Program-made: the position numbers and the translations under genes
The notes under the pieces: model-generated
Database searches by the model: none
Told to the model about the DNA's origin: nothing
Seen by the model: the letters and a program-made list of their open reading frames with translations, nothing else
DNA from: Pseudoroseicyclus tamaricis
GTDB lineage: Bacteria > Pseudomonadota > Alphaproteobacteria > Rhodobacterales > Rhodobacteraceae
NCBI RefSeq assembly: GCF_012070395.1
Contig: NZ_JAAFYS010000001.1
Location: 784,001-848,000, forward strand
Length of the DNA stretch: 64,000 nt
Direction: 5' to 3'
Shown here: one piece after another, positions 13,071 through 21,440 of the stretch
Position numbering within the stretch: position 1 is the first letter of the stretch
Layout of the letters: each line of letters begins with the position of its first letter

Positions 13071-13637
13071 CAGAGCGGGCGCCAGATCCTCTATGGCGGC
13101 GTCCCCTTCTCGCACCTCGCTGCCGAGGAGGGCGCCTTCGAGCGCACGTTTACGCTGCTCGGCCCCAGCAAGACCGAGTTGCTGACCGGCTACCGCGTAG
13201 GCGTCGTCGTCGGCTCGGCTGCGGCGATGCGGGCGGTGGAGAACGTCTTCTCCGTCACGTCCCTCCGCGCCCCGGCCTACGGGCAGCATGTGCTGAAAGG
13301 CTGGCTCGGCCCCGACGAGGCCTGGATCGCCGAGCGGATAGCGGCCTTCGCCGCCCTGAGAAAGCAGACGACGGACCGGCTGGCGCGGGTGCCCTGGCTG
13401 AAGGTGCACCCTCAGGACGGAACGGCCTACCTCTGGGGCGACGTGTGCGAGCTCGGCCTGCCGGACATCGAGATTGGCCGCACGCTGGCGCGCGACGCGG
13501 CGGTGCTGGTCAGCATGGGCTACCAGTTCGGCCCGTCCTCGAACGGCTTCATCCGGATCTGCTACGCCCGCGGGCCGGTCGGCTGGGCCGCAGCGCTGGG
13601 CCGGATGATCGAGGCGCTTGAGGCGCGGGCCCGCTAG
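13071..13637 (+). pseudogene. class I aminotransferase, C-terminal remnant
   Basis: The readable protein is only the C-terminal part of a fold-type I aminotransferase: 'ILYGGVPFSHLAAEEG', then 'LLGPSKTELLTGYRVGVVVG', where SKT holds the PLP-binding Lys. It continues through the small domain ('VSMGYQFGPSSNGFIRICYARG') to a TAG at 13635-13637. The N-terminal half (about 230 residues in the family) is absent; the hydrolase gene ends at 13033 and no aminotransferase-like sequence precedes 13059. An ATG at 13179 could start translation, but the product would lack the PLP lysine. This is best read as a deletion remnant. Confidence 0.75.
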
Positions 13638-13904: not shown

Positions 13905-16900
13905 GTGCATGACTTGCCCCAACCGGGCGGCGCCGCCGCGCCGCGCATCCGCCTCGTCTCCTGCGTCGGGGTGGGGCTGGATCTGGCGTTCCTGCCGCAT
14001 TTCCTCCGCCACTACGCGGGGCTGGGGATAGAGCCGGCCCACATGCACTTCATCCTCAACGCGGGGGAGGAAGAGGGCGCGGCGCTGGAGCGGGCCGAGG
14101 CGATGCTGGCCGAGTTCGGCGCCGCGCCGCCGCGCCTCTGGCGGGGCACCTACAGCAGCGAAGCCATGTGGGCCGAGCGCCGCGCCCTGCAGAGGGAGGT
14201 GGCGGCGCCGGAGGAGTGGATCGTCAATTCCGACGTCGACGAGCACTACAGCTTCCCCGCGCCGCTCCCCGAGATCGTGGAGCACTGCCGGCAGGTCGGC
14301 GCGACCTGCGTCCAGGGTCTGCAGATCGACCGCTTCGCTGCCGATGGCACGCTCGCCCCGGTGGCCGACGCGCCGGCGCTGGCGGAGCAGTTCCCGAGCG
14401 AAGGGGAGGCCTCCTTCCACATCTTCGGCGGCGGCAAGCATCAGGGAATCTCGGGCACCACCAAGATCATGCTGCACCGGGCCGATGTCTTCCCCCGGCG
14501 GGGCGGGCACAATCCCGAGGGGCTGACGAAGGATTCCCGGGGGGCGGCGAGCGCCGACGGCCCGCGCTTCCTCGCCGGGCGGCCGCTGCACACGTTCCGC
14601 GAGATCGCGGACCCGGCGTTCCGCTTTGCCTTCCCCTTCCAGAGCGCCCACTACAAGTGGACCGCCGCGCGCCTGCCGAGCATCGAGCGCCGGCTCTCGG
14701 CGGCGGAGGTCAGCCCCGCGGGGCGGGAGTTCGGCGGCAAGGTGCAGGACTACATGGCGCAGAACGGCCGCATCCGGCTGGACGACGTGGCCCTCCGCGC
14801 CCCCGGCGACCGGCCCGAACCGAACTGGCGCGGCGCCATGGCCGCCCTGCGCCACGGGATGAGCGACGTCTTCGTCGTCATCCGCGCCGCCGGAGAGCGG
14901 ACGGAGGATCTCTGCCGCGAGCTGGTGCGCGCCGAGCTGCCCGATGCGCAGATCGCCCTGATCCGCGAGGTGCCCTTCGCCGCCGCCGTGCGCCGCGCCT
15001 TCGAGCTCGGCGTGGCGGCGGGGCGGGACTGGACGCTCTGCCTCGACGCCGACGTCCTCCTCCGCCCCGGCGCCCTTGCCGAGCTGCTCGCTGCCGCCCG
15101 CGCCCAGCCGGAGAACACCTTCGGCGTCTGCGGCCGCGTCGCCGATCCTCTGCTCGGGCAGTGGCGCGTCGCCGGCCAGCACCTCTATCGCACGAAGTGG
15201 CTGGGCAAGGCGCTGGAGGAGGTCCGCTTCGATCCCGAGCAGCGCCGCCCCGAGAGCCACGTGAAGCGGCAGATGAAGGGCAGGGGGCACGACTGGGCGG
15301 ATGTGGACGTGGCCATGGGCCTGCATGACGCCGAGCAGTCCTTCGCCGACATCTTTCGCAAGGTCGTCGTCCACACGCGCAAGCATGACCGCTTCATGGG
15401 CTATGCCCGCCGCTACTGGGAGCGGCTCGGTGGCGGAGACGCCGATCTGCGCGTCGCGCTCTGGGCGCTGGAGGCGCCGGAGCGCATCGCCGACGTGCGC
15501 CCCCCGCAGGGCGAGGGTGCCCGCAACGTCCAGATCGACCGCCGGCACTTCCCCGAACGGATCGACGCCTTCCTCGGCGAGGTCGGGCTGCAGGAAAAAC
15601 CGCCCCTCGTCGCCGATGCCTTCGGGCCGGAGGAGATCTCCCGGCGGCTGGAGGCTTTCGCCGAGGCGCCGGAATGGCTGGAGGACCGCGAGCAGATCGA
15701 GGCCGATCACGCGCGGGAGGTGACGCGCCGCGCGCAGCGGCCCCGGCTGATCTCCTGCATCGGGGTGGACGGGCCGGGCGATGGCGACCTGCCTTTGCTG
15801 CCGCATTTCCTGAAGCACTACCTTCGCCTCGGCATCTCCAGGGGCCGCATCCACCTGATCCTCAACGCCGCCAGCGCCGACAGCCCGAACCTCGCGCGCG
15901 CCCGCGAGATCGTGGGGCGCTTCGGCACGGCGCCCCCGGAGGTCTGGGTCGGCCCCTATACCAGCGGCGACATGTGGGATCGCCGCCGCGCCCTGCAGCA
16001 GAAGGTCGCCGGCCCCGACGACTGGATCGTCAACGCCGATGCCGACGAGTTCCACGCCTATCCCGCCCCGCTCGACGAGGTCACCGAAGTCTGCGCCGAG
16101 CTCGGCGTGCGCTGCGTGCAGGGGCCCTTCGTGGACCGGATCGCCTCTGACGGCAGGCTGGCGCCGGTGGAGGAGGGCCGGCCGCTCTTCGCGCAATTCC
16201 CCCTCGCCGCCGACGTGGGCGGCGCCATCGGCAAGCGCCCCGGCGCCGAGGATGCCACGGGCACCGTCAAGCTGATGCTGCACCGGGGGGATGTGGTGCC
16301 GGGCCTCGGCGGGCACAGCGTGCAGAACGTGCGCCCCGCGGCGCTGGTCTACAACCTGCCGCTCCAGCAGTTCCCGCGCATCAAGGCACCCGAGTGGCGC
16401 TTCCGCCTGCCGTTCCTTGTCTGGCACTTCAAGTGGACGGCCGGCCTCGCGGAGGGGCTGGAGGCGCGGCGGAGCACCGCCGGCGCCAGCGCCGCGGGGT
16501 CGAGCTATGGCGGGCGCATCCTCGACTACCTCCACGAGACCGGCGGCCGGATCGTGCCGGAGCATGTGCGGCTGGCGCCCGAGGGGATCGGAGAGGCCCA
16601 CGAGGGCTGGCGGGACGAGGTCACCGCCCTCGCCGAGGCGGGGGCGCGGCTGCGGCCCGTCCGGACGCGCGCCGTCCGGCAGCGCAAGGCGGCGGAGGCC
16701 ACCGCGGCCTCCCTCGCGCCCGGCTGGCGGGTGCGCCAGCTCACCTTCGGCAGCGCCGGGGGCGCCTTTCATGCGCACAGCTACTACGACATCCCTGTCC
16801 TGAGCGATGACGCCAGCCGCGTCGCCGCCTACCGCATGGGCATCGAGGGGCGCTGGATGACACCGCGAGACGCGGTCGAGATCGGCATCGTCGATGTCGA

Positions 16901-17921
16901 GCGCGGCGGCTTCGCGCCCGTCGGCACCAGCCATGCGTGGAGCTGGCAGCAGGGGCCGATGGCGCAATGGCTGCCGGGGGACAGGGGCCTCGTCTGGAAC
17001 GACCGCGCCAGCGTCGGCGCAGAGGGGGGCGATGCTTTCGTCGCCCGGCTCTACGACACGGCAACGGGGGAGACGTGCACGCTGCCGAGGCCGGTCTACT
17101 GCCTCGCGGCCGGCGGGCAGGTGGGCCTGTCGCTCAATATGGCCCGGCTCGACAAGGTGCGCCCCGGCTACGGCTATCCCGGCGGCGCGGGCACCGGGCT
17201 GGACGAGGGCGCGCCGGAGGGCGACGGCATCTGGGCCGTCAGCCTCGTCAATCCCGACGCGCCGCCCCGCCTCCTCCTGCCGCTGTCGCGCGCGGTGCAG
17301 GTTCTGGCCGCCTGGCTGCCGGAGGCGGAGCGGGAGGAGCACCTCTCCGGCGCGCTCGTCCACTGGTTCAACCACGCCAAGGTCTCTCCCGACGGCAGGC
17401 GCTTCACGGCGAAGCTGCGCTGGCGCGCCGCCGATCTGAAGAGCCGCTGGACCGGGCTGATGGGGGTGAGCATCACCTGCGGCATGGATGGCGAGGACAT
17501 GGCCATCCTCGCCCGCGGCACCAGCCACGTCATGTGGGACGGGCCGGACAGGCTCTACTTCTGGCACCAGGCGGAGAAGAGGTTCGTCACCATGACCGAT
17601 GCTGTGCCTGAGGGCACGAACGGCGCCGTGCCGCACCCCGATCTCATCACCGCCAACGTCCACTTCCGCCATATTCCGGATGCGCCGATGTTTGCTGTCT
17701 ACGACACCCCCTACGAGCCGGAGATCGACGTGATGTGGCTGGACCGCCAGACGGGCGAGGCCGAGCGGCTGGCCCGCTTCCATAACCACCAGCCCCCGCA
17801 CGGCCCCTACCGCTGCGACCTGCACCCCGTCCCCTCCCGCGACGGGCGGCGGATCATCGTCACCTCGCTGCAGGATGGCGGCCGACAGATCTATGTGCTG
17901 GAGCGGGAGGCGAGCGCGTGA
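13905..17921 (+). CDS. giant multi-domain glycosyltransferase with C-terminal beta-propeller-like region
   Basis: A 1338-residue protein. I place the start at the GTG at 13905, nine bases after GGAG. Region 1 (about 13-300) is a glycosyltransferase-like domain opening 'RIRLVSCVGVGLDLAFLPHF' with the acidic motif 'IVNSDVDEHYSFPA' near residue 108. Region 2 (about 305-600) is a second GT-A-like fold with 'TLCLDADVLLRPGALAELL' near 380. Region 3 (about 611-930) repeats region 1: 'RLISCIGVDG', 'HFLKHYLRLGI', 'DDWIVNADADEFHAYPAP', 'WHFKWTAGLAEGL'. Region 4 (about 940-1338) resembles a TolB/WD-type propeller ('HAKVSPDGRRFTAK', 'VPSRDGRRIIVTSLQDG'). No signal peptide or membrane segment is seen. It overlaps the next glycosyltransferase gene by four bases. 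The acceptor is unknown; surface glycan or glycoprotein synthesis is inferred. Confidence 0.8.
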   Translation: MHDLPQPGGAAAPRIRLVSCVGVGLDLAFLPHFLRHYAGLGIEPAHMHFILNAGEEEGAALERAEAMLAEFGAAPPRLWRGTYSSEAMWAERRALQREVAAPEEWIVNSDVDEHYSFPAPLPEIVEHCRQVGATCVQGLQIDRFAADGTLAPVADAPALAEQFPSEGEASFHIFGGGKHQGISGTTKIMLHRADVFPRRGGHNPEGLTKDSRGAASADGPRFLAGRPLHTFREIADPAFRFAFPFQSAHYKWTAARLPSIERRLSAAEVSPAGREFGGKVQDYMAQNGRIRLDDVALRAPGDRPEPNWRGAMAALRHGMSDVFVVIRAAGERTEDLCRELVRAELPDAQIALIREVPFAAAVRRAFELGVAAGRDWTLCLDADVLLRPGALAELLAAARAQPENTFGVCGRVADPLLGQWRVAGQHLYRTKWLGKALEEVRFDPEQRRPESHVKRQMKGRGHDWADVDVAMGLHDAEQSFADIFRKVVVHTRKHDRFMGYARRYWERLGGGDADLRVALWALEAPERIADVRPPQGEGARNVQIDRRHFPERIDAFLGEVGLQEKPPLVADAFGPEEISRRLEAFAEAPEWLEDREQIEADHAREVTRRAQRPRLISCIGVDGPGDGDLPLLPHFLKHYLRLGISRGRIHLILNAASADSPNLARAREIVGRFGTAPPEVWVGPYTSGDMWDRRRALQQKVAGPDDWIVNADADEFHAYPAPLDEVTEVCAELGVRCVQGPFVDRIASDGRLAPVEEGRPLFAQFPLAADVGGAIGKRPGAEDATGTVKLMLHRGDVVPGLGGHSVQNVRPAALVYNLPLQQFPRIKAPEWRFRLPFLVWHFKWTAGLAEGLEARRSTAGASAAGSSYGGRILDYLHETGGRIVPEHVRLAPEGIGEAHEGWRDEVTALAEAGARLRPVRTRAVRQRKAAEATAASLAPGWRVRQLTFGSAGGAFHAHSYYDIPVLSDDASRVAAYRMGIEGRWMTPRDAVEIGIVDVERGGFAPVGTSHAWSWQQGPMAQWLPGDRGLVWNDRASVGAEGGDAFVARLYDTATGETCTLPRPVYCLAAGGQVGLSLNMARLDKVRPGYGYPGGAGTGLDEGAPEGDGIWAVSLVNPDAPPRLLLPLSRAVQVLAAWLPEAEREEHLSGALVHWFNHAKVSPDGRRFTAKLRWRAADLKSRWTGLMGVSITCGMDGEDMAILARGTSHVMWDGPDRLYFWHQAEKRFVTMTDAVPEGTNGAVPHPDLITANVHFRHIPDAPMFAVYDTPYEPEIDVMWLDRQTGEAERLARFHNHQPPHGPYRCDLHPVPSRDGRRIIVTSLQDGGRQIYVLEREASA

Positions 17922-20155
17922 GCCGCCCGCGCCTCATCCTGACGATCCTCGTGCGAGACGAGGCCGACATCATCGCGCAGAACGTCGCCTGGCACCTCTC
18001 GCAGGGCGTCGACCACGTGATCGTCACCGACAACGGCTCGAGTGACGGCACCTCCGATGCACTGCGCCCCTTCCTGCAGGGCGGCGCACTGACGCTCCTC
18101 CACGAGCCGTCCGATGCCTACCTGCAGGACGCCTGGACGACCCGGATGGCCCTTATGGCACGGGACGAGCTCGGCGCCGACTGGATCATCTGCAGCGATG
18201 CCGACGAGTTCTGGCGCGCGCCTTCGGGGAATCTTAAGGACGCCCTGCCGGAGGGCGAGGACGCCCCGGCCATGCTCACCTGCCACCGCCACAACATGAT
18301 CTGCCCGCGCGACGCGCTGGAGACGGGGCCATGGGCGGACCGGCTGGTCTACCGGGCGGTGGACCCGCCGGCGATGGTCGCCCCGCCGCAGACGATGGAA
18401 GAACTGCACGCGATCCGCTTCGAGCACCCCTACTTCCAGTACCGCCTGCCGCCGAAGATGCTGTTCCGCGCCCGGGGCCTGACATCCATCGCCCGCGGCG
18501 CGCATGGCGGGGGCTATGCCGGCGAGGCGACGAAGGCGGACAGCGCGGTGGAGATCCTCCACTATCCCATCCGCTCGCGGCGCGCCTTCGAAGCCTCCGT
18601 CCGCCAGATCGGCGGGGCGATGCGGCGCAACGCGGGTACGGCGCTGCAGACCTCGTGGAAGTACCGCCGCTGGCTGGCGATGACGGAGGCCTCCGGCAGC
18701 ATCTGGCCCGCCTTCGCCGAGGCGCTGCCAGACCGCCAGCGCCTCGCCCGCGACGTGGAGGCCGGGCGGCTGGTGCGCGACCTGTCGATGAGCGAGGCGC
18801 TGGCGCAGCTCGACGTGCCGGCCCCGATGGTGGAGGGCGAAGCGCCTGCGGTGCCGGCGCAGCGGGTGGAGCCGGGCCACATGGGCTCGCTCCTCCTCGT
18901 CACCGGCCCCGACGCAGGGGTGGATGCGGCGCTCGCCGAGCTGCTCATTGCCCGGGGCGCGACGCCGCCCCTCGCCCCGCCGCGCCGGCTGAAGAGCCTG
19001 GGCGAGGCGATCCTCGTCGAGATGGGGCGAGGGGGGCGCGATCTGCGCGCGGCCCCGAAGGGCTGGTTCGACCGGCCCATCGCCCGGCAATACCAGCAGA
19101 CGCTCTTCGAGGCGCTGGTCGAGAGCTTCGCCGACCTCAACGACGCCGTCGTCCACGGTCCCGAGCTCGCCGCGCTCCTGCCCCTCTGGGAGGGCATTGC
19201 CCGCGACTGGCAGCTGGGCCTGCGCACCGTGCTCGCCATCGGCAACCCCTCGCAGGAGGTCCGCGCCTGGCACAGGGCGACCGGCCTCCCCCTGCCCATC
19301 GGCGCGCTGATCTGGGCGCGCCGCGCGCTGGACGCCGAGCGCCACAGCCGCGGCCTGCCGCGGGTGATCGTTCTGCACGATGACCTCTTGGGCGACTGGC
19401 GTGCCTGCGCCGGTGCGCTCGAGGGGCAGCTCGGCCTGACGGCCCCCGCGCCTCACCGGGCCCCGGATGACCAGATCGAGGCCCTGATCTCCCGCCTGAA
19501 GGCGCCAAGCGCCGCCACGGTCAACGACGCGCTCGCCGATCCAGCGCTGCCCGATTTCGTCAAGGAGGTCTTCGAGACCCTCCGCGCCCTCGCGGCCTCT
19601 CCTGAGACCGACCATTCCACCACCCTCGACCGCCTCGGCGCCACGCTGGATCAGGCCTGCGCCCTCCTCGGCCCCGCGCTGGCCTCTTCCGGAGAGGTAG
19701 AGGCCGAGCCCGCATTGCAGGGCCAGCCCGACGCCACGGAGACGAGCCAAGCGCTGGAGGCCAGCCAGACGCAGAATGCCCGCCTGACCCTCCTCCTGCG
19801 CTGCCGTGCCCGGCTCGTCGCCCCCTCGCGCCCCGGTCTCCGGCAGCGCGCCCGCGACCGGCTCTCCGGCAGCGACGCCGACGTGCGCGCGGTCCGCGAG
19901 GCGCCCGAGTTCGACGCGGAGTGGTATCGCAGCACCTATCCCGATGTCTCGGCGCACGGCATCGACCCGGCCCAGCACTTCCTGCGCTTCGGCGCGCGCG
20001 AGGGCCGCAACCCCGGCCCGGGCTTCGATACGCTGCGCTATTACGAGGCCAATCCGGATGTGCTGGAGTGCGGCGCGCTCGCCTTCCTCCACTACATTCG
20101 CCACGGGCGGGAGGAAGGCCGCGCGATCTTTCCGGCGGAGCCTCTGCCGGTGTAG
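17918..20155 (+). CDS. glycosyltransferase family 2-like / sulfotransferase-like / YPDV-repeat fusion protein
   Basis: A 745-residue protein starting at a GTG that overlaps the preceding stop (GTGA). Residues 1-290 form a glycosyltransferase of the Glyco_tranf_2_4 type: 'LILTILVRDEADIIAQNVAWH', 'HVIVTDNGSSDGTSD' and the metal/sugar motif 'WIICSDADEFWRA'. Residues about 320-550 look like a divergent P-loop sulfotransferase-like module ('GSLLLVTGPDAGVDAALAELL', 'LPRVIVLHDDLLGDW'). The tail from about 657 has two repeats of the type 'EFDAEWYRSTYPDVSAHGIDP..HFLRFGAREGRNPG', seen in many alphaproteobacterial polysaccharide enzymes. With the upstream giant protein and downstream epimerase it forms a small surface-glycan island. 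Confidence 0.82.
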   Translation: MSRPRLILTILVRDEADIIAQNVAWHLSQGVDHVIVTDNGSSDGTSDALRPFLQGGALTLLHEPSDAYLQDAWTTRMALMARDELGADWIICSDADEFWRAPSGNLKDALPEGEDAPAMLTCHRHNMICPRDALETGPWADRLVYRAVDPPAMVAPPQTMEELHAIRFEHPYFQYRLPPKMLFRARGLTSIARGAHGGGYAGEATKADSAVEILHYPIRSRRAFEASVRQIGGAMRRNAGTALQTSWKYRRWLAMTEASGSIWPAFAEALPDRQRLARDVEAGRLVRDLSMSEALAQLDVPAPMVEGEAPAVPAQRVEPGHMGSLLLVTGPDAGVDAALAELLIARGATPPLAPPRRLKSLGEAILVEMGRGGRDLRAAPKGWFDRPIARQYQQTLFEALVESFADLNDAVVHGPELAALLPLWEGIARDWQLGLRTVLAIGNPSQEVRAWHRATGLPLPIGALIWARRALDAERHSRGLPRVIVLHDDLLGDWRACAGALEGQLGLTAPAPHRAPDDQIEALISRLKAPSAATVNDALADPALPDFVKEVFETLRALAASPETDHSTTLDRLGATLDQACALLGPALASSGEVEAEPALQGQPDATETSQALEASQTQNARLTLLLRCRARLVAPSRPGLRQRARDRLSGSDADVRAVREAPEFDAEWYRSTYPDVSAHGIDPAQHFLRFGAREGRNPGPGFDTLRYYEANPDVLECGALAFLHYIRHGREEGRAIFPAEPLPV

Positions 20156-20180: not shown

Positions 20181-21188
20181 TCAGCGAGGGACGTCGTAAT
20201 ACTCGCAATACCAGTCGACGAAGGCGGCCACGCCAGCCGCCACGCCCGTCTTCGGCGAATAGCCCGTCAGGCTGTTCAGCAGCCGCGCATCGGCCCATGT
20301 CGCCGGGACATCTCCGGGCTGCAGCGGCATAAGGTTTCGCTTCGCTTCGCGCCCGGTGGCCGCCTCGATTGTCTGGATGAAGTCATCCAGCCGAATTGAC
20401 GTCGAATTGCCGATATTCACCACCCGCCATGGCGCGACCGGCGAGAGGCTGTCGCCCTCGAACTCCTCGCCAATTCGAGGGGGTGCGTCCATCAGCAGGC
20501 GAATGCCTTCGACGAGATCGTCGATATAAGTAAAGTCACGTCGCATGTCCCCGAAATTGTAGACGTCGATCGGCCGCCCCTCGAGGATCGCTTTCGTGAA
20601 GCGGAACAGGGCCATATCGGGCCGGCCCCAGGGGCCGTAGACGGTGAAGAAGCGGAAGATGGTCGTCGGCAGATTGTGCAGATGCGCGTAGGAATGCGAC
20701 ATCGCCTCGGTCGACTTCTTCGTCGCCGCGTAAAAGGACATCTGGTGATCGGACGCCTTCGTCTCCGCATGCGGCATGCCGGTATTGGGCCCGAAGACGG
20801 ACGAGGTCGACGCCAGCAGCATGTGCTTCGGCGGATGGGCGCGGGCGGCTTCCAGAAGCTCGAATGTGCCGATGACGTTGGTTTCCAGATAGGACCGGGG
20901 GTCTTCGATGGAATGGCGCACGCCCGCCTGCGCGGCGAGGTGGAAGACGACATCGGGCGCCACCTCCTCGAATAGATCCCGCAGCAGCCCCGGATCTTCA
21001 ATTCGGCCATTCACCACCCGGAAGCCGCCCCGCTCCAGCAGCATCTCCTGCCGGCGCCGTTTCAGGCTGACGTCGTAATAATCCGACAGGGAGTCGACAC
21101 CGACCACCTCGAATCCATCGGCCAGGAGCCGCTTGCAGAGGTGATAGCCGATAAAGCCGGAGGAGCCGGTGACGAGAATGGTAGAGAT
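20181..21188 (-). CDS. NAD-dependent epimerase, UDP-glucuronate 4-epimerase-like, with apparent ATC start codon
   Basis: An extended short-chain dehydrogenase of about 335 residues. Homology clearly begins upstream of any ordinary start: the frame reads STILVTGSSGFIGYHLCKRL, containing the NAD-binding GxxGxxG. The codon before it, at 21186-21188, is ATC, seven bases after AGGAAG. The first in-frame GTG (21107) would delete the whole NAD motif. Further landmarks are 'FHLAAQAGVRHSIEDP', 'LLASTSSVFGPN' (catalytic Ser), 'SFYAATKKSTEAM' (Tyr-x-x-x-Lys) and 'RDFTYIDDLVEG'. The family interconverts UDP-glucuronate and UDP-galacturonate for capsule or O-antigen. It is convergent with the glycosyltransferases. 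The gene is either silenced, uses a rare start, or has a sequence error. Confidence 0.85.
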   Translation of the reverse strand: MSTILVTGSSGFIGYHLCKRLLADGFEVVGVDSLSDYYDVSLKRRRQEMLLERGGFRVVNGRIEDPGLLRDLFEEVAPDVVFHLAAQAGVRHSIEDPRSYLETNVIGTFELLEAARAHPPKHMLLASTSSVFGPNTGMPHAETKASDHQMSFYAATKKSTEAMSHSYAHLHNLPTTIFRFFTVYGPWGRPDMALFRFTKAILEGRPIDVYNFGDMRRDFTYIDDLVEGIRLLMDAPPRIGEEFEGDSLSPVAPWRVVNIGNSTSIRLDDFIQTIEAATGREAKRNLMPLQPGDVPATWADARLLNSLTGYSPKTGVAAGVAAFVDWYCEYYDVPR

Positions 21189-21440
21189 GGTCGTGCTTCC
21201 TGAAGAGGGCCGTACGTCTGGCTCAGTGTCATTTGTCCCGGGCGGCGCGGCACCGTTTTTGCTCCGGTGGCTACAGGTAGTCTACCTTTCCCCCGCGACA
21301 CCATGAATTGCGCGGCTCCGGGCCTTTCCGCTGAGTGGCAAGGTGAAGGGGCGCGGTCAATCGCGGGCCCGGCCGCGATCGAGCGGTCGCCGGCGGGCGG
21401 GGGCAAGTTCTGGATGTGGGCGAACGCCGCCCGGCCGACC

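Follow-up and report, generated by a model that had tools for sequence, protein, structure and literature searches.

A single gene at positions 13905-17921 (forward strand) of the Pseudoroseicyclus tamaricis DNA analysed here (64,000 nucleotides, contig NZ_JAAFYS010000001.1; hereafter the window) encodes a chain of 1338 amino acids in which three glycosyltransferase (GT) modules of the GT-A type, R1, R2 and R3, are followed in this order by a beta-propeller, R4. Judging from the gene orders of related loci, this fused gene is a union of enzymes that are normally encoded as separate neighbours, i.e., a 'Rosetta stone' fusion. We hold with moderate confidence that the product is a cytoplasmic multi-enzyme chain that makes a surface-glycan unit and that R4 binds or acts on a uronate-containing product.

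The reading frame is uninterrupted and starts with GTG, a GGAGA being located 8 bases 5' of it, and its GC fractions at codon positions 1/2/3 are 0.75/0.51/0.93. The own genome yielded a single full-length copy. All modules lie on the forward strand: R1 (residues 1-318; 13905..14858), a Glyco_tranf_2_4-like GT-A-type module with the motif W105-I-V-N-S-D110-V-D112-E113; R2 (residues 319-575; 14859..15629), a different, GT2-like GT-A module with D381-A-D383; R3 (residues 601-930; 15705..16694), a second Glyco_tranf_2_4 module with the motif WIVNADADEF; and R4 (residues 936-1338; 16710..17918), a propeller resembling polysaccharide lyase family 22 (PL22), whose residues are given below in domain, not chain, numbering. 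A first-pass annotation, made from the letters of the window, had described a protein of this length with two matching GT regions, a third GT and a propeller-like end, and the open reading frame (ORF), alignment, Pfam and models agree with it; the acidic motifs that it placed near residues 108, 380 and 711 correspond to DxD-type sites at 110-112 (DVD), 381-383 (DAD) and 712-714 (DAD). Its statement that the chain has no membrane segment is likewise borne out, since the peak 19-residue hydropathy mean is 1.46, at which none is expected. The protein has no match in NCBIfam at expectation values (E) up to 1, and neither the whole protein nor R4, an R4 profile or an R1/R3 profile gave a meaningful match when searched against PDB sequences. 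For comparison, a collection of 84,980 genomes was scanned, yielding 22 related loci, in which genes were called crudely as the longest ORFs by codon GC.

R1 and R3 are clear repeats of one another, with 42% identity over 292 residues (BLASTP, E 3e-73) and a shared W-x-V-x-x-D-x-D-E motif, as the matching patterns noted earlier had implied. R3 alone scores 31.2 bits against PF13704 (Glyco_tranf_2_4), over the curated cut-off of 27.5, R1 alone scores 16.7 bits, under it, and the whole protein reaches 50.7 bits in two matching stretches. In an alignment of 27 R1/R3 rows, H36, Y37, W79, W89, R92, W105, D112, E113, D142 and R240 (R1 numbering) are identical throughout and D110 in 26, so that the acidic motif proves conserved; N108 is not conserved. 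Structures were predicted for the R1+R2 pair and for R4, the GT-A assignment of R1 thus coming from the joint model and that of R3 from sequence. The joint model has a mean pLDDT (predicted local distance difference test) of 81 (24 aligned sequences), and the ten-residue blocks of R1 lie mostly at 81-98, with one at 59. In a tree of 26 modules, from which locus L030 was omitted because its transferase match spans only about 130 residues, the fused R1 copies cluster with the stand-alone genes of L018, L019 and L025 (support 100/99), and the fused R3 copies form a separate clade (100/99). An internal duplication was rejected, as a tree forced to join R1 and R3 fails the approximately unbiased (AU) test (p-AU 0.002), which is subject to the same long-branch pull as the tree model. 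The earlier wording 'duplicated' therefore holds for the resemblance of the two domains but not for an origin within the gene; on this phylogenetic evidence, R1 and R3 are paralogues united by fusion.

Between them lies R2, which according to the models is a GT-A fold of a different type from R1 and R3, as had been supposed. The R2 model matches the GT-A enzymes B4GALNT1 (Z 15.1, 148 residues, 2.3 Å), WrtF (Z 14.9, 144 residues, 2.6 Å) and SpsA, all within Z 13-15; the VIA-align rows obtained with the R1-R2 model fall nearly all on R2. As far as residue 470, the R2 blocks of the joint model have pLDDT values of 74-96; beyond it the values are low. Against the Pfam GT2 models R2 stays below the cut-offs (PF13641, 18.1 of 27 bits; PF00535, 17.7 of 23.3). 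Foldseek matches of the R1-R2 model include COLGALT1, the chondroitin polymerase K4CP, heparosan synthase 2 and GalS1, with TM-scores (template modelling scores) of about 0.2 across both modules; thus, the single folds match known enzymes, but the module arrangement does not. R2 is present in three of the 22 loci (L010, L011 and L026), and in L026 it is the product of a separate gene with 54.6% identity (alignment A3, in which this copy was misplaced, was excluded from structure prediction). At E 1e-10, R2 matches occur in two of 394 family genomes, the own genome included, and a plasmid search for R2 found none.

The C-terminal region had been called TolB/WD-like, which agrees with the beta-propeller predicted for R4 (mean pLDDT 91.7, 23 sequences) and with the similarity of its profiles to TolB. 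The top structural matches are the oligogalacturonate lyases 3PE7 (Z 28.4, 324 residues, 3.5 Å) and 3C5M (Z 27.9), with 14% and 10% identity in the structural alignments, respectively. The next family after PL22 is the S9 peptidase propeller (Z 23.6), and no TolB chain appears among the best 50 structural matches listed, of which the lowest has Z 20.6. In Pfam, R4 gives only a weak PD40 match.

To locate the PL22 active-site residues (3PE7 numbering) in R4, we aligned four R4 profiles to four PL22 sequences with hhalign in local mode at low mact. H242, the catalytic base of PL22, falls on R4 H273 in all four profiles, in similar surroundings (THEFW in PL22, SHVMW in R4). Four further residues are the metal ligands of PL22: H355 falls on H372 in 4/4 profiles, H353 on D370 in three and on G365 in one, H287 on H318 with two profiles and on L312 with two, and Q350 is discussed below together with R217, another active-site residue of PL22. 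W189/H192 correspond to W219/H222, as read in two profiles. The part of PMC13314786 available to us yielded no active-site residues.

H273, W276, H318, D332, R368, D370 and H372 are identical in all 34 R4 rows, including those from Bacteroidota and an archaeon, and H222 and R237 in 33; among the 34 rows, the Pacificitalea protein is counted twice (L044 and L050), and L020/L022 and L023/L024 are near-identical pairs. The invariance of the WSWQQGPM stretch is partly built in, since this peptide served as a search pattern. None of the six search peptides covers H273, H318, D332, R368, D370 or H372, and loci that came from other searches keep these residues as well.

The history of the fusion can be read from the related loci. 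Eight of the 22 encode R4 in one chain with an R1/R3-type transferase (L010-L015, L017 and L030, the match in L030 covering only about 130 residues), and in twelve such a transferase adjoins R4 as a separate gene (L016, L018-L024 and L026-L029, with the gene order reversed in L019 and L029), i.e., the two are fused or directly adjacent in 20/22 loci. In L025, two genes lie between them, and in L031, a contig of 6.4 kb, no R1/R3-type transferase was found. All 22 loci hold an R4 search peptide, so the scan could have caught R4 without a transferase too. Palleronia aestuarii (L010) and P. rufa (L011) encode the full R1-R2-R3-R4 chain, in the order of the window and with 61-70% identity per module. 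Intermediate fusions are GT-GT-R4 without R2 in L012 (Limimaricola) and sulfotransferase-GT-R4 in L014 and L017 (PF13469, 40.6 and 33.4 bits vs the 27-bit cut-off). L026 carries R2 as a stand-alone gene, together with a GT, R4 and an ATP-binding cassette (ABC) exporter, and a second, split set (ABC exporter, sulfotransferase, GT and R4) lies apart from the fused gene at L074 in genome G089, which matching coordinates suggest to be P. rufa, L074 being its second copy. That the parts are separate but neighbouring in relatives suggests that they cooperate to build, and perhaps to edit, a surface glycan. It might be objected that the long ORF arose through a sequencing or assembly error that united neighbouring genes, as relatives do carry the R1-R4 parts in this way; however, we consider this virtually impossible, as the identical module order in L010 and L011 refutes it and the frame in the window is free of internal stops.

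R4-like matches at E 1e-10 were found in 13 of the 394 family genomes, the own genome included, and five of these have distant matches only (E 1e-31 to 1e-15). A search of 60 other kin genomes, one per genus, revealed no relative at E 0.001, and the genus-level search took in the own genome only. Viral contigs gave a single 22-residue match and phages none.

The neighbourhoods of the relatives are glycan gene clusters, in agreement with the glycan link proposed at first pass. In the split loci we found ABC exporters (L018, L021, L025 and L026; by NCBIfam, that of L021 is nearest to PglK and MsbA, far below the cut-offs), sulfotransferases (L018 and L025), GT2 genes and a flavin adenine dinucleotide (FAD) oxidoreductase (L021, L025, L026 and L028; PRK07208 group for L021 and L025). 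Nucleotide-sugar enzymes lie upstream in L010, and on a plasmid of Palleronia LCG004 a GT-R4 gene lies within 10 kb of an annotated uridine diphosphate (UDP)-galactopyranose mutase, guanosine diphosphate (GDP)-mannose genes and sulfotransferases. Two loci also have a chaperonin gene (Cpn60) shortly before the GT/R4 pair (L023:5956-7605 and L029:6186-7835).

Beyond these loci, a Parabacteroides plasmid carries an R4 homologue in a polysaccharide cluster with transferases, EpsG, a UDP-sugar dehydrogenase and an epimerase, and in the archaeon Halocatena the homologue lies among sulfatases, a GH78 enzyme and a xylanase. Thus, the R4 family appears to occur in both degradation and biosynthesis contexts. 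Stand-alone R4-like proteins were also observed by tripartite tricarboxylate transporters or amino-acid catabolism genes (L050:11920-13209, L052:9971-11221 and L079:7836-9107), and these possibly represent an unnamed PL22-like enzyme family.

These data raise the question of how such a chain could work. In the mechanism that we propose, R1, R2 and R3 would each add one sugar in turn in the cytoplasm, to an acceptor that may be a growing, probably lipid-linked, oligosaccharide. The conserved His/Asp pocket of R4 would bind, and probably act chemically on, a uronate-containing part of the product; the chemistry would take place at the C5 proton, as either trimming by beta-elimination or C5-epimerisation, and this step would precede sulfation and export. 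The putative partners are the enzymes of marine proteobacterial surface-glycan clusters, namely ABC exporters, further transferases, sulfotransferases and the FAD oxidoreductase.

Several observations weigh against this reading. R4 has no match to PF14583 (PL22) at E up to 5, and none of the 23 aligned R4 members has one at E up to 1; the Halocatena relative reaches 15.6 of 30 bits, below the cut-off. When the four R4 profiles were compared with a PL22 profile of four sequences and a TolB control of eight, TolB scored higher each time (probability 68 vs 33, 95.0 vs 82.7, 95.1 vs 92.3 and 93.6 vs 91.1), so that the sequence signal of R4 is a general propeller signal; we do not assign R4 to PL22, and its PL22 likeness, as modelled, rests on the fold ranking and the aligned residues. 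Two PL22 side chains are not kept: R217 falls on V253 (three profiles) or L250 (one), and Q350 on P362 (two profiles) or Y367 (two). The narrow profile at mact 0.3 aligns the last blades only, and the global mode of hhalign gives a low score and an off-register alignment. The R4 relatives of Pacificitalea, Thioclava and Bradyrhizobium lie in catabolic or transporter, non-glycan neighbourhoods, and in four of the five family genomes with distant matches only, the loci retrieved showed no R1/R3-type transferase in 15-17 kb, although in one of them (L077) a GT2-like ORF adjoins R4. Finally, no exporter of the split-locus type, no sulfotransferase and no FAD oxidoreductase turned up among the scanned proteins of the window, and the sole match of the own genome to the split-locus FAD oxidoreductase is weak (65 residues).

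Part of this evidence would suit a propeller that is not catalytic at all, i.e., a carbohydrate-binding or scaffolding domain holding the glycan or partner proteins near the transferases, close to the 'binding platform' of the first-pass annotation. The higher TolB/PD40 similarity in 4/4 profile tests and the missing counterparts of R217 and Q350 point in this direction, and R4 as the C-terminal partner of varied transferases could equally be an adaptor. However, invariant His, Asp and Arg residues across 34/34 rows, some of them stand-alone proteins from a degradation cluster with no transferases listed, are not what one would expect of a pure scaffold. Binding is possible, but the pocket is near-invariant and aligns in part with the PL22 active site, and this constellation, together with the occurrence in both degradation and biosynthesis contexts, fits a catalytic or formerly catalytic pocket at least as well; we regard a purely non-catalytic R4 as a serious but rather doubtful alternative.

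A different view concerns the transferases: the modules might alternate in the manner of K4CP and produce a long repeating polysaccharide, in line with the processive build-up of a repeating oligosaccharide suggested earlier. Such a polymerase would agree with the K4CP, heparosan synthase 2 and COLGALT1 matches that Foldseek gives for the R1-R2 model, and with the Klebsiella O12 system, in which, according to PMC11231755, one polypeptide holds all needed modules. Nevertheless, at a TM-score of about 0.2 the folds match singly and not in their arrangement, and as R2 is restricted to 3/22 loci, most R1/R3-R4 pairs there manage without it. We found no evidence for processivity: R1 and R3 belong to distinct clades and R2 is a third type, so sequential single transfers fit at least as well, and a processive polymerase seems unlikely to us.

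Our preferred reading, a cytoplasmic chain with sequential transfers and an R4 that binds or acts on uronate, can be extended further, albeit tentatively and with more doubt than for the scaffold. One polypeptide might both build and edit a glycan; R4 would then stand for a novel family of PL22-like propellers that are active on uronates in biosynthesis, as C5-epimerase or trimming lyase, and that modify the product of the fused transferases in the cytoplasm ahead of sulfation and export, and the product would be a sulfated glycosaminoglycan-like surface glycan of marine alphaproteobacteria. If so, the Bacteroidota homologue beside a UDP-sugar dehydrogenase would join the same propeller family.

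In the window itself, the fused gene is followed at 17918..20155 on the forward strand by a candidate operon partner, a transferase with an N-terminal Glyco_tranf_2_4 domain (PF13704, 53.6 bits), which overlaps the stop of the fused gene by 4 bases. In eight loci (L010-L015, L017 and L049), a gene homologous to this partner over at least the first ~290 residues directly follows the R4 chain. The last 451 residues of the partner (18800-20155, forward strand) match no Pfam family at E up to 0.1; by eye, the C-terminus holds repeat units of the type 'YPDV...HYIRHGREEGR'. On the reverse strand, 20181..21107 encodes a nucleotide-sugar epimerase/dehydratase (PF01370, 155 bits; no NCBIfam cut-off reached), a possible supplier, which shares 63% identity across 232 residues with an ORF located at the beginning of locus L012. 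Inspection of this gene by eye (20181-21190, reverse strand) revealed no ATG, GTG or TTG ahead of the Rossmann motif ILVTGSSGFIGYHL; hence, its start is non-standard or damaged. The other scanned proteins of the window belong to ordinary metabolism and transport or are matchless, with the partner gene and the epimerase as the only glycan-type ones. A short ORF at 13179-13637 (forward strand) looks by eye like the C-terminal part of a pyridoxal phosphate (PLP) aminotransferase and is possibly a gene remnant.

The repeated fusion and adjacency name a functional partnership between GT-A transferases, sulfotransferases and a PL22-like propeller. If R4 is catalytic, a polysaccharide-lyase fold would have been recruited to cytoplasmic glycan assembly, and the chain would open a way to surface glycans of marine Rhodobacteraceae that are as yet uncharacterised. 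Public records label R4 proteins 'hypothetical protein' or by a transferase name. Among the matches listed, literature titles and abstract openings contain no description of a three-GT-plus-propeller architecture and no transferase-PL22 propeller fusion, in keeping with the earlier remark that no enzyme of this architecture had been described. Multi-transferase chains are already known (PMC11231755), and the PL22-like end is the unusual part.

PL22 enzymes are stand-alone proteins that break down pectin fragments, whereas R4 is fused to or located beside glycosyltransferases. R4 shares with 3PE7 and 3C5M its best structural match and the counterparts of the base H242 (H273), the ligand H355 (H372) and W189/H192 (W219/H222), but it differs in having D370 at the position of H353, no counterpart of R217 or Q350 and no Pfam PL22 match. 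With TolB-type PD40 propellers the relation is reversed: every R4 profile matches TolB with the higher probability, but the structural Z-scores of TolB are below those of PL22, with none among the best 50 matches listed. R1 and R3 keep the W-x-V-x-x-D-x-D-E motif of Glyco_tranf_2_4 and the GT92-like GalS1, the latter also being a Foldseek match of the R1-R2 model whose location on R1 is assumed, although R1 alone remains under the Pfam cut-off. As in K4CP and heparosan synthase 2, several GT-A modules share one chain, but here three modules of distinct types are combined with a propeller and the arrangement is not reproduced (TM about 0.2). The Klebsiella O12/O7 O-antigen polymerases, as described in PMC11231755, resemble the present system in that transferase modules are variably split or united in one polypeptide; they carry a coiled-coil molecular ruler and a chain terminator, whereas the chain from P. 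tamaricis bears a PL22-like propeller.

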